A stretch of 64,000 nt of DNA, from positions 186,001-250,000 of the forward strand of contig NZ_JACHDZ010000001.1 of NCBI RefSeq assembly GCF_014201375.1. The letters are read 5' to 3'. Source of the DNA: Tunturiibacter empetritectus (lineage in GTDB: Bacteria > Acidobacteriota > Terriglobia > Terriglobales > Acidobacteriaceae). Shown here in pieces: positions 29,160 to 57,115 of this stretch; position 1 is the first letter of the stretch; every line of letters starts with the position of its first letter. A program made the position numbers and the translations under genes. Under the pieces are notes generated by a model, which saw only the letters and a program-made list of their open reading frames with translations, did no database searches and was not told the DNA's origin.

Positions 29160-30320
29160 ATGGGTTTTCTCTCTCGGATGCGGGTGGCGGCTGTGCTGGG
29201 GCTGGTGGTGATGGGTGCGCCGGCGAGTTGGCTTTGCGCGCAGGAGGCAAAGACGATGTTGGTGGAGCCGCCGGCTCCCCTGCTGCCGGACCAGATTGGG
29301 GAGTGGCTCCTGGAGCCGCAGCCTACGGGCGCAATTATGTGCTCGGACCAGAGCGAGAGGCCTGAGTCTCTGGTTTTAGGCGAAGATGGACTGAAGTGCT
29401 ATGAGCATGGAGTCTATCGTTCGACGGCGAATAAAAATTGGACCATTACGGTCACTGCACGTCAGTTTGTTGACGCGACGGGTGCACAGTCTGCATACAG
29501 TTACTACCGTCGGCCGGGGTCTGCATCGGGCGGATCGAAGATCGGCGATGAGTCTGGGAACGGCTATCTGTCTCGTAGTGGGACGACGGTGGTGTCTGCG
29601 GATTCGACTGCGCCGTCGGTCAAAACCGTTGCTATGTTGAAGGAGTTGGAGACACATCTACCGAAGGTAGGTGGCCCGAAAGGCCTGCCTCCGCTGTTGC
29701 CGACTTATCTGCCAGCGAAGGGTCTGAAGACAGAGACAATAAAATATGCTCTGGGGCCGGTGGGTTATCAGGCGACGGGTGGGGTGCTTCCGGCGGAGAT
29801 GATTGGCTTTGATAAAGCAGCCGAGGTGGTGACGGCGAAGTACGAGGGGAAAGGTACGCTGACGATGCTACTGTACCCGACGCCGCAGATTGCGGGCGCC
29901 CACGGGCGACAGATCGAGGCGGAGATGAACCGGGAGGGCAGTGCGGCGGGGACGGTGAAGCTGAGGCGTGAGGGGCCGCTGGTGCTGCTGACGACGGGGG
30001 CCTGGGGTGCGGCCGAGGCGCAGAGGCTGGTGGAGGGGATCCATCTGCGGAGTGAGGTGACCTGGAACAGGCCGGTGCCGCCGGAGTTCCATGCGGAGAT
30101 CAGGAAGACGGTGAGCCTGCTGACCAGCATCCTTGTGTTCTGCGGACTGGGGGCGCTGGCGGCTGTGATTCTGGCGCTGTTTCTGGGTGGCGGACGGGCG
30201 GCGATCAGGGTACTTCAGGGTAAGCCTGCGGCGACGGAGCCGGAGTTTCTTCGGATCGATCTGAGCGGAAGCGCGGCTCGGATTCATACGGAGGGGTCCG
30301 GGGTTGAGCACGGGGGATGA
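29160..30320 (+). CDS. Exported, membrane-anchored hypothetical protein
   Basis: A 386-residue protein. A signal peptide (about 1-27, ending WLCAQ) precedes a large beta-rich extracytoplasmic region with two similar halves: residues 35-170 and 185-300 each carry a W-x-ITVTARQF or TLMLLYPTPQ-like strand. A single C-terminal transmembrane helix (about 325-348) is followed by a short cytosolic tail. I believe similar proteins occur widely in Acidobacteria without a known role. The next 470 bp contain only a predicted small RNA. Confidence 0.55.
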   Translation: MGFLSRMRVAAVLGLVVMGAPASWLCAQEAKTMLVEPPAPLLPDQIGEWLLEPQPTGAIMCSDQSERPESLVLGEDGLKCYEHGVYRSTANKNWTITVTARQFVDATGAQSAYSYYRRPGSASGGSKIGDESGNGYLSRSGTTVVSADSTAPSVKTVAMLKELETHLPKVGGPKGLPPLLPTYLPAKGLKTETIKYALGPVGYQATGGVLPAEMIGFDKAAEVVTAKYEGKGTLTMLLYPTPQIAGAHGRQIEAEMNREGSAAGTVKLRREGPLVLLTTGAWGAAEAQRLVEGIHLRSEVTWNRPVPPEFHAEIRKTVSLLTSILVFCGLGALAAVILALFLGGGRAAIRVLQGKPAATEPEFLRIDLSGSAARIHTEGSGVEHGG

Positions 30321-30508
30321 CCTGAGGGCTCGCAGATCTGCACTGGGGATGGTGCAGGGGGGAAGCTAAGCGGCTGATAGGAATGCGGTTTAGATTTTGA
30401 TGAGGACGGTAAAAGCGAAAATTAGGCGAATGTAAGAGGCGCTGTTGGCAAGTGAGTAACCCCCGTAACCATTGAGGAATAAGGACTTACAGTAGTCGAG
30501 TTTTGGCC

Positions 30509-30537
30509 TTGACACGTCATATCGCCAAACTTAGTAT
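30509..30537 (+). promoter_or_regulatory. Strong sigma-70-type promoter
   Basis: TTGACA (30509-30514) and TAGTAT (30532-30537) are separated by exactly 17 bp. No gene starts in the following 90 bases, and a strong terminator follows, so this appears to drive a free-standing short transcript. Confidence 0.65.
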
Positions 30538-30543
30538 TTCGCC

Positions 30544-30630
30544 AGAAAGTTCTGATGGCTTTGCCTCCGTTGGAACTATTCTCCCTAAAGAAGAGGCCAC
30601 CCTGTTGCCGGGTGGCCTCTTCGCTTTTTC
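30544..30630 (+). ncRNA. Predicted small RNA, about 87 nt
   Basis: The predicted start lies about seven bases after the TAGTAT box, and the transcript would end at the hairpin at 30591-30621. The 5' part can form CAGAA/TTCTG. The middle is single-stranded and pyrimidine-rich, with CTCCGT and TTCTCCCT segments that could pair with ribosome-binding sites. No frame of plausible coding character occurs inside. It stands alone between a plus-strand gene and a minus-strand gene. Existence is inferred from promoter plus terminator. Confidence 0.5.
30591..30628 (+). terminator. Rho-independent terminator of the small RNA
   Basis: A perfect 12-bp stem (AAGAGGCCACCC with GGGTGGCCTCTT), a 7-nt loop and a TCGCTTTTT tail. 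It is one of the cleanest terminators in the window and sits 270 bp after the nearest upstream gene. Confidence 0.85.
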
Positions 30631-31028: not shown

Positions 31029-31520
31029 TCAGGGAGTGGGGAACGATAGCTCCATCGAGACGTCTGCGCGGGCGTACGGAGACGGCACTACACGGTCTGG
31101 TGGGAGCCGTTTGAAGCCGACGGCTTCGTAGAGGTGAATGGCCGGGGTCAGCTTGTGGTTGGTTTCGAGATAGAGCCGGGTTGCGCCTGAGGTCCTTGCT
31201 TCGTCGACGACGGCCTGGAGGAGTCGGCGTCCGATTCCGGTTCCCTGGCAGGCTTGCGTTACGGCCATCTTGGCTACTTCGAACTCCCCGGGCTTCATCG
31301 CGACCAGAGCACAGCAGCCGACGGTCTCGCCGTTTTGAATGGCGAAGAAGATGCGGCCGCCGTGATCGAGGATGGTTGCCTGTGGGTCGGAGAGGGAGTA
31401 GACGTCCTTGGGCTCGAGGACGAACTCGCGGGTGATCCACTCTTCGTTGAGGAGGCGGAAGGCGATCTCGTCTCCCGGTTCGAACTCTCGGATCTTGAAC
31501 TCCAGAGCTGTGTTGTTCAT
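31029..31520 (-). CDS. GNAT-family N-acetyltransferase
   Basis: A 163-residue GNAT protein. The acetyl-CoA loop is visible as QACQGTGIGRRLLQAVVDEA near residue 97, preceded by the beta-4 strand FEVAKMAVT, and the end of the fold is HLYEAVGFKRLP. Family members acetylate small molecules or protein amino groups. The ATG at 31520 has GGAGGT four bases upstream, so I chose it over the in-frame ATG at 31580. The gene is divergent from the LysR gene at 31643, the usual arrangement for a regulator and its target. Confidence 0.85.
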   Translation of the reverse strand: MNNTALEFKIREFEPGDEIAFRLLNEEWITREFVLEPKDVYSLSDPQATILDHGGRIFFAIQNGETVGCCALVAMKPGEFEVAKMAVTQACQGTGIGRRLLQAVVDEARTSGATRLYLETNHKLTPAIHLYEAVGFKRLPPDRVVPSPYARADVSMELSFPTP

Positions 31521-31642
31521 GGGACCTCCACTGAATTCTGCGATGCGGAAAGGGTCATTGAGGACGCCTCCTGAACTCAACGCTACGAGGAGATTCTTGG
31601 GATGTCCAATAGCTGAAAGGTCGCGATCTATATGATTGAGAT

Positions 31643-56792: not shown

Positions 56793-56935
56793 CGTTAGCT
56801 CCTTGCCCGGCATCTTTCGAAGCAATCGAGCAGAGCGGGATGAATTTTAGGCAGCGCTCGGGCAGACCTATTGCAGTCAGCGAGAATGCTCTCCAGCTCT
56901 CCCAGCGAAGCTGAATCAAGCCTGGTCGGCCACCG

Positions 56936-57115
56936 GCAGGTCTCCTGACTTACGCCTCATCGAGCTTTGACTCACCTTCCCAGGACAAATCCCAGTGGCT
57001 TAGTACCAATCGTCAAAACTCTCAGCGCTTACAGTTACGGGGTAGCGACGGATTCACACCGTCTTCCCAACACCAGTGTAGAAAAGACTATCCCGGTCAC
57101 CCCGCCGGGTCAAAT
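56936..57115 (-). promoter_or_regulatory. Cobalamin riboswitch
   Basis: On the minus strand the region shows the conserved elements in order: GGTGTGAATCCGTCGC, then GCTACCCCGTAACTGT, the B12-box GCCACTGGGATTTGTCC, GGGAAGG and the 3' AGTCAGGAGACCTGCC. This is the adenosylcobalamin-class leader that turns expression off when the cofactor is abundant. It lies about 145 bp upstream of cobU and directly after the hemG stop. End points are approximate. Confidence 0.92.

Follow-up and report, generated by a model that had tools for sequence, protein, structure and literature searches.

A family-wide small RNA of Acidobacteriaceae with a predicted target in a separately encoded Lys/Ala-rich mini-gene

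The locus considered here lies in a 64,000-nt stretch of Tunturiibacter empetritectus DNA (hereafter, the window), in the space between a DUF6599 gene and a GNAT acetyltransferase gene. The initial annotation had placed a free-standing small RNA (sRNA) in this space, and that reading is supported by a conserved locus, an invariant -35 element, and a covarying two-hairpin fold. The relevant features are as follows:

29160 to 30320, + strand: DUF6599 gene (Pfam PF20244), the conserved upstream neighbour, used as an orthology marker.
30465 to 30491, + strand: A/T-rich block, moderately conserved by column information over 59 loci, spanning roughly -44 to -18 relative to the -35 hexamer.
30509 to 30514, + strand: -35 element TTGACA; CTTGACA in 59 of 59 family loci.
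30532 to 30537, + strand: -10 element TAGTAT; spacer of 17 nt here and of 17 or 18 nt in 59 of 59 family loci.
30543 to 30629, + strand: predicted sRNA of about 87 nt (from fold, conservation, and covariation).
30544 to 30582, + strand: 5' hairpin (AGAAAGUUCUGAUGG ... CCGUUGGAACUAUUCU); double changes at 5 of 15 pairs, 98.4% of cells paired.
30576 to 30587, + strand: core CUAUUCUCCCUA; CT[AG]TTCTCCC in 58 of 60 family sequences.
30590 to 30622, + strand: terminator hairpin of 13 bp, then GCTTTTT; double changes at 11 of 13 pairs, 99.4% of cells paired.
30604 to 30609, + strand: terminator loop GUUGCC, a candidate contact with AUGGCAAC at the mini-gene start; TTGCC in 55 of 60 family loops.
31029 to 31580, - strand: GNAT acetyltransferase, the next sizeable ORF downstream.
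G000:C1:1152226-1152237, - strand, outside the window: mini-gene Shine-Dalgarno (SD) region TAGGGAGAATAG, a perfect 12-nt complement of the core.

The promoter that had been claimed, TTGACA-17-TAGTAT, is present, and among the 59 family loci the -10-like hexamer follows at a spacing of 17 nt in 38 and 18 nt in 21. Conservation starts at CAGAAAG, 5 nt past the -10 element, and from these two positions we infer a transcript start near 30543. As bare consensus matches, the promoter and terminator are near chance level: A consensus scan of 7 kb gives 3 promoter-like sites versus 2.5 expected, and 7 terminator-like sites versus 6.1 expected. It is on conservation that we accept the locus as real. 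The A/T-rich block upstream may represent an UP element or else a binding site for an activator or other regulator. With its own promoter and an intrinsic terminator that covaries, the locus has the free-standing organization of a trans-encoded base-pairing sRNA.

Two other readings of the locus bear directly on its surroundings. A cis-acting element, serving either as terminator or 3' UTR of DUF6599 or as a leader for the downstream gene, would fit the constancy of the upstream neighbour, which all 40 family loci with 3-kb flanks (L109-L148) possess and which in most loci sits about 210-290 nt away on the same strand, with no terminator called between. An invariant promoter does intervene, however, the downstream genes vary from locus to locus, and the core matches the SD region of a different gene altogether (see below), so that we consider a cis role improbable. 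Still less credible, to the point that we give it almost no weight, is a small protein-coding gene: Both a 56-aa ORF from 30555 and a 62-aa ORF from 30503 are open in the window's genome, but in 19 of 60 family sequences the former has ACG in place of its ATG, loop insertions shift the frame, and the changes that do occur preserve base pairs. Neither the ORF list nor Pfam at the locus shows a conserved gene across the sRNA, and the description of the region as free of genes thus holds, the crossing 56-aa ORF not being conserved.

At the genus level, a blastn-type search (E < 1e-15) places the sRNA locus in 56 of 62 genomes; the same search did not find it in G020, G045, G050, G051, G054, and G060, of which G045, G050, and G060 are incomplete assemblies. 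A covariance model built from 39 distinct genus sequences for the wider search detects the sRNA in 226 of 250 family genomes, representing 78 of 79 genera, and in 74 of the 299 genomes of a class-wide draw, 70 of these being within the family. At least 80 loci match a 22-base core pattern; those listed are all from organisms of Acidobacteria type, including Edaphobacter, Granulicella, Acidicapsa, and Terracidiphilus. Among the 41 f7 genomes with matches, 8 were accepted as orthologues on the basis of promoter, hairpin, core, and terminator, all of which are retained in the distant orthologues of f7 (GGAACTATTCTCCCCT) and f8 (AAACTATTCTCC); DUF6599 adjoins 5 of the 8 accepted f7 orthologues and the f8 orthologue. 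L268-L271 and the low scorers among the f7 matches proved on reading of the loci to be terminator-only look-alikes and were rejected. Two diverged orthologues with an altered or lost core, L281 (G274) and L282 (G074), also lie beside DUF6599. A phylum-wide search with R2 gave weak matches (E 5.5e-5 to 0.0086) in 15 genomes outside family f1, which we do not count as orthologues, and a search of the plasmid collection returned no match. We note in passing that one assembly, G059 (L059, L060), carries the sRNA as a tandem pair with about 180 nt between the copies, an arrangement present on two of its contigs.

The 87-nt RNA has a minimum free energy of -41.5 kcal/mol (z -6.4), equalled by 0 of 200 shuffles. 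Across 60 family sequences, 16 of the 28 pairs in the two helices are changed on both sides while 98.9% of cells remain paired, and on none of the five measures is this level attained by even one of 500 shuffles; the locus therefore passes the in silico check that the initial annotation had proposed, namely conservation in relatives with covariation. The terminator described there, a perfect 12-bp hairpin with a T-run, is likewise present, apart from its length, which is 13 perfect pairs. The predicted fold leaves CCCUAAA unpaired and ties up UUCU of the core in four pairs, so that CCCU may serve as a toehold. Rfam 15 contains no family matching the sRNA locus, permissive E-values yielding chance matches far below gathering scores; elsewhere in the window, Rfam identifies a cobalamin riboswitch (56918-57092, - strand, 91.4 bits).

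The linker core of the RNA, CUAUUCUCCCU, is complementary to AGGGAGAAUAG. A loose version of this complement, with G-U pairs allowed, occurs at 101 places in the window's genome versus 87 for the reversed control, and is for that reason uninformative. Among 100 of these 101 sites, the exact complement AGGGAGAATAG occurs only once besides the antisense of the sRNA itself, in the SD region of a mini-gene: The site lies 4 nt upstream of the ATG of a free-standing, Lys/Ala-rich ORF of 22 codons (MATKKAAKKAPAKKAAKKATKK), which is preceded by a CTTGACA/TATACC promoter and followed, past its stop, by a strong hairpin. The mini-gene has a dedicated promoter of the CTTGAC/CTATAC type, and its terminator comes no more than about 100 nt after the stop. 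Of 200 family genomes, 155 contain the pattern AGGGAGAATAG-N3-9-ATG, versus 4 for the reversed control. A Lys-rich ORF of 14-37 codons follows in 26 of the 30 loci that this search returned; a Lys-rich ORF is also present in 23 of 30 loci returned by a T-or-C pattern search, and in 98 of 111 loci read overall, a figure in which some places are repeated and many were picked because the string looked right. The initial annotation had singled out two pyrimidine segments as able to mask ribosome-binding sites; of these, TTCTCCCT lies in the conserved core and does complement the mini-gene SD region, whereas CTCCGT is for the most part base-paired within the 5' hairpin and is unlikely to be a principal contact.

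The encoded peptides are 12-37 aa long, Lys/Ala-rich, and not hydrophobic, with no match in Pfam and a best E of 0.4 in NCBIfam. Their Lys/Ala make-up is kept under synonymous variation of the ORF, which argues that the peptide matters, and this composition suggests that it may bind nucleic acid. The neighbours of the mini-genes that we examined gave no hint of function. In three assemblies (G080:C3, G088:C24, and G149:C104), sRNA and mini-gene lie about 6-9 kb apart on one contig.

The two partners also vary together. At core position 3, CTGTTCTCCC replaces CTATTCTCCC in six genus genomes (G003, G004, G005, G006, G034, and G057), and all six have AGGGAGAACAG before the Lys-rich ORF, whereas the 33 A-type genomes read have AGGGAGAATAG; the 39 genus pairs thus comprise 33 A:T (A-U in RNA), 6 G:C, and no crossed combination, in a search whose target pattern permitted T or C at this position (Fisher p 3e-7, a test that takes no account of relatedness). 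Mapped onto the best DUF6599 protein tree, which has 67 rows, the sRNA letter shows four changes, one of them in G127, where the target was not found, and the target letter shows three, at the same places as the sRNA, two of the three falling on well supported branches; with so few origins, no significance is attainable by a sign test. Duplex position 12, which lies outside every search pattern, is Watson-Crick in 55 of 74 cases, versus a permutation mean of 32 and a maximum of 45 in 10,000 (relatedness again ignored), and on the tree this amounts to 1-3 supported independent pairs, with the target unchanged in many of them. Exchanging partners weakens the predicted core duplex, from -19.7 kcal/mol (native) to -14.8 for an A-type sRNA on a C-type site, and from -22.0 (native) to -19.9 for a G-type sRNA on a T-type site. 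Pairing extends over at least 11 bp in 74 of 75 rows, a length partly predetermined by the search, which located targets via the complement of the core. Whole-molecule duplex energies separate poorly (mean -50.7 versus -41.4 for mononucleotide-shuffled leaders, sd 6.4, minimum -68.7). In its complementarity to an mRNA from another locus, and in the matched changes of the two, the RNA again fits the profile of a trans-encoded base-pairing sRNA.

That pairing is perfect and co-evolving would also be expected if the mini-mRNA, as a short RNA with a strong promoter, were itself the regulator, either as a sponge or decoy for the sRNA, or as one half of a pair resembling type I toxin-antitoxin systems, in which the cationic peptide would be the toxin; moreover, the mini-gene's own promoter and terminator make both RNAs sRNA-sized. 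The preserved composition of the peptide and its lack of hydrophobicity speak against such arrangements, as does the finding that the two genes are far apart in G000, G095, and G135, and we regard them as unlikely. Our preferred reading is instead that the sRNA is the regulator and the mini-gene its target.

A second contact between the two RNAs is suggested by the terminator loop. The loops of intrinsic terminators usually vary freely. Here, TTGCC persists in 55 of 60 loops on a stem that covaries. GUUGCC complements GGCAAC within AUGGCAAC, and codon 2 of the mini-gene is GCA in 73 of 73 cases of Ala; in the same ORFs, GCA makes up 217 of the 401 codons for Ala at codon 4 and beyond. This bias could also reflect a general preference for A close to the start. 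At codon 3, the third base is variable (ACG 27, ACC 27, ACT 8, ACA 2). Among the five family loops without TTGCC, two show matching changes in the target (G177, loop GGTGCC with GGCACC; G102, CTGCC with GGCAG), two belong to genomes in which no target was found (G092, G225), and the fifth, that of G283, was outside the target search. In G136, a GTTGCC loop faces GGCACC, a mismatch, and G116 departs as well, with ATGCCAGC. The geometry of the loop contact is unproven, since it crosses the core contact. A second GGCAA or GGCAAC often occurs just before the mini-gene terminator (L317, L328, L332, and others), and is absent in L339, L343, L346, and L349.

In some lineages only one of the partners is apparent. 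All 11 g64 genomes retain the sRNA, loop, and promoter with a different core, CTGCCTCCCATAG; from this new core, a mini-gene leader with CTATGGGAGGCAG before the start is predicted. The pattern TGGGAGGCAG-N3-9-ATG is not enriched in g64 (7 of 11 genomes versus 22 of 29 others), and 0 of the 30 loci read are Lys-rich. In f7, the expected GGGGAGAATAG-ATG occurs in 7 of 42 genomes; six of the eight matches listed are the antisense of the sRNA itself, and the two in G451 are not Lys-rich. The sRNA is present and the target site was not found in G032, G043, G059, G061, G127, G077, G106, and G107, while G056 and G058 have the sRNA and only a site match of other look. The sRNA of G043, G058, and G059 reads CCCA, for which a complementary leader, TGGGAGAATAG, is predicted. 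Conversely, G054 has the mini-gene, and the sRNA was not found there. Because g64, f7, and several individual genomes show one partner alone, the sRNA may act on additional targets or on older ones. Exact core-complement sites also occur before other ORFs in G004, G005, G006, G165, and G239 (L365, L366, L338, L342), among them those of a 501-aa secreted or membrane protein (G005) and a 129-aa membrane protein (G165 and G239); these are possible extra, lineage-specific targets.

The same observations are relevant to a broader view, in which the molecule is an anti-Shine-Dalgarno sRNA with many targets, the mini-gene being merely the most visible, and the core is kept by their sum. The f7 (8 inspected) and f8 (L283) orthologues keep ACTATTCTCC-type cores, with no mini-gene found there, and the exact sites before genes such as those for the 501-aa and 129-aa proteins are what one would expect of such an RNA. 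It is nevertheless a single gene type that recurs in the family, and the leader of that gene tracks the changes in the sRNA, so that we see the broad alternative as possible while leaning against it.

The explanation that we consider likely, on the conservation, fold, complementarity, and matched changes observed in the sequences, is that of a family-wide, trans-acting sRNA of about 87 nt that represses a separately encoded Lys/Ala-rich mini-gene, with the linker on the SD region and possibly the terminator loop on the start. Transcription of the sRNA would begin at a dedicated sigma-70-type promoter and stop at the RNA's own terminator; the linker CUAUUCUCCCU would then pair with the SD region AGGGAGAAUAG of the mini-mRNA encoding the histone-H1-like peptide, and the loop GUUGCC could contact AUGGCAAC, the start region of that mRNA. 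Repression is the usual outcome of pairing across SD sites. Since 11-12 bp of pairing would span the SD region, initiation should be blocked, shutting out ribosomes and lowering production of the peptide. In its fullest form, this would be a dedicated two-RNA switch of Acidobacteriaceae, whose two-place grip (linker on SD, loop on start codon) restrains a peptide resembling polylysine; left unchecked, that peptide would coat DNA, RNA, or ribosomes. The terminator hairpin would double as a recognition loop. This extension is tentative, and we would not count on it.

For one of the commonest phyla in soil, these results provide, from sequence alone, a base-pairing sRNA spread through a family and a target for it that can be tested, with matched changes in both partners. 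The partner mini-gene, with its own promoter and terminator, is new and matched no family of Pfam or NCBIfam. Should the proposed mechanism hold, the pair would give convenient experimental access to post-transcriptional control in Acidobacteria, and would open the question of why a bacterium would restrain a histone-tail-like peptide; the terminator loop as second contact would, if true, be an unusual and checkable detail. The remark that sRNAs are little known in this phylum agrees with the table of a 2022 review, which gives 4 annotated sRNAs for Acidobacteria (PMC9029176). At the level of titles and abstract openings, the literature on acidobacterial sRNAs or on such a peptide showed nothing on this RNA.

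By analogy, the sRNA, which belongs to no family tested, may work like Yfr1 or the RsaE-type anti-SD sRNAs. Yfr1 is described as having a 5' stem-loop, an unpaired ultraconserved 11-nt motif, and a GC-rich terminator hairpin with a U-tail, and as being lineage-wide (PMC2190773). The present RNA resembles this cyanobacterial sRNA in its 5' stem-loop, unpaired motif, and terminator hairpin, kept through a lineage; it differs in that the motif ACUCCUCACAC is absent, the phylum is another, no sequence relation was seen, and there is a recurrent partner mini-gene with matched changes. The sRNAs of RsaE, LhrC, and AbcR type use short, C-rich UCCC or CUCCC motifs to cover the ribosome-binding sites of several targets, and share with our sRNA the short C-rich motif over the ribosome-binding site; our sRNA matched no Rfam family. 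The mini-gene peptide recalls histone H1-like Lys/Ala-rich proteins in its AAKK/KKAA-type composition, although it is only 12-37 residues long and matches no curated family (Pfam, NCBIfam). In IstR-1/tisB and other type I pairs, a trans-encoded RNA pairs with an mRNA leader that precedes a very short ORF. The pair proposed here would share that arrangement, with the differences that its peptide is polycationic and that both members are maintained together throughout a bacterial family.
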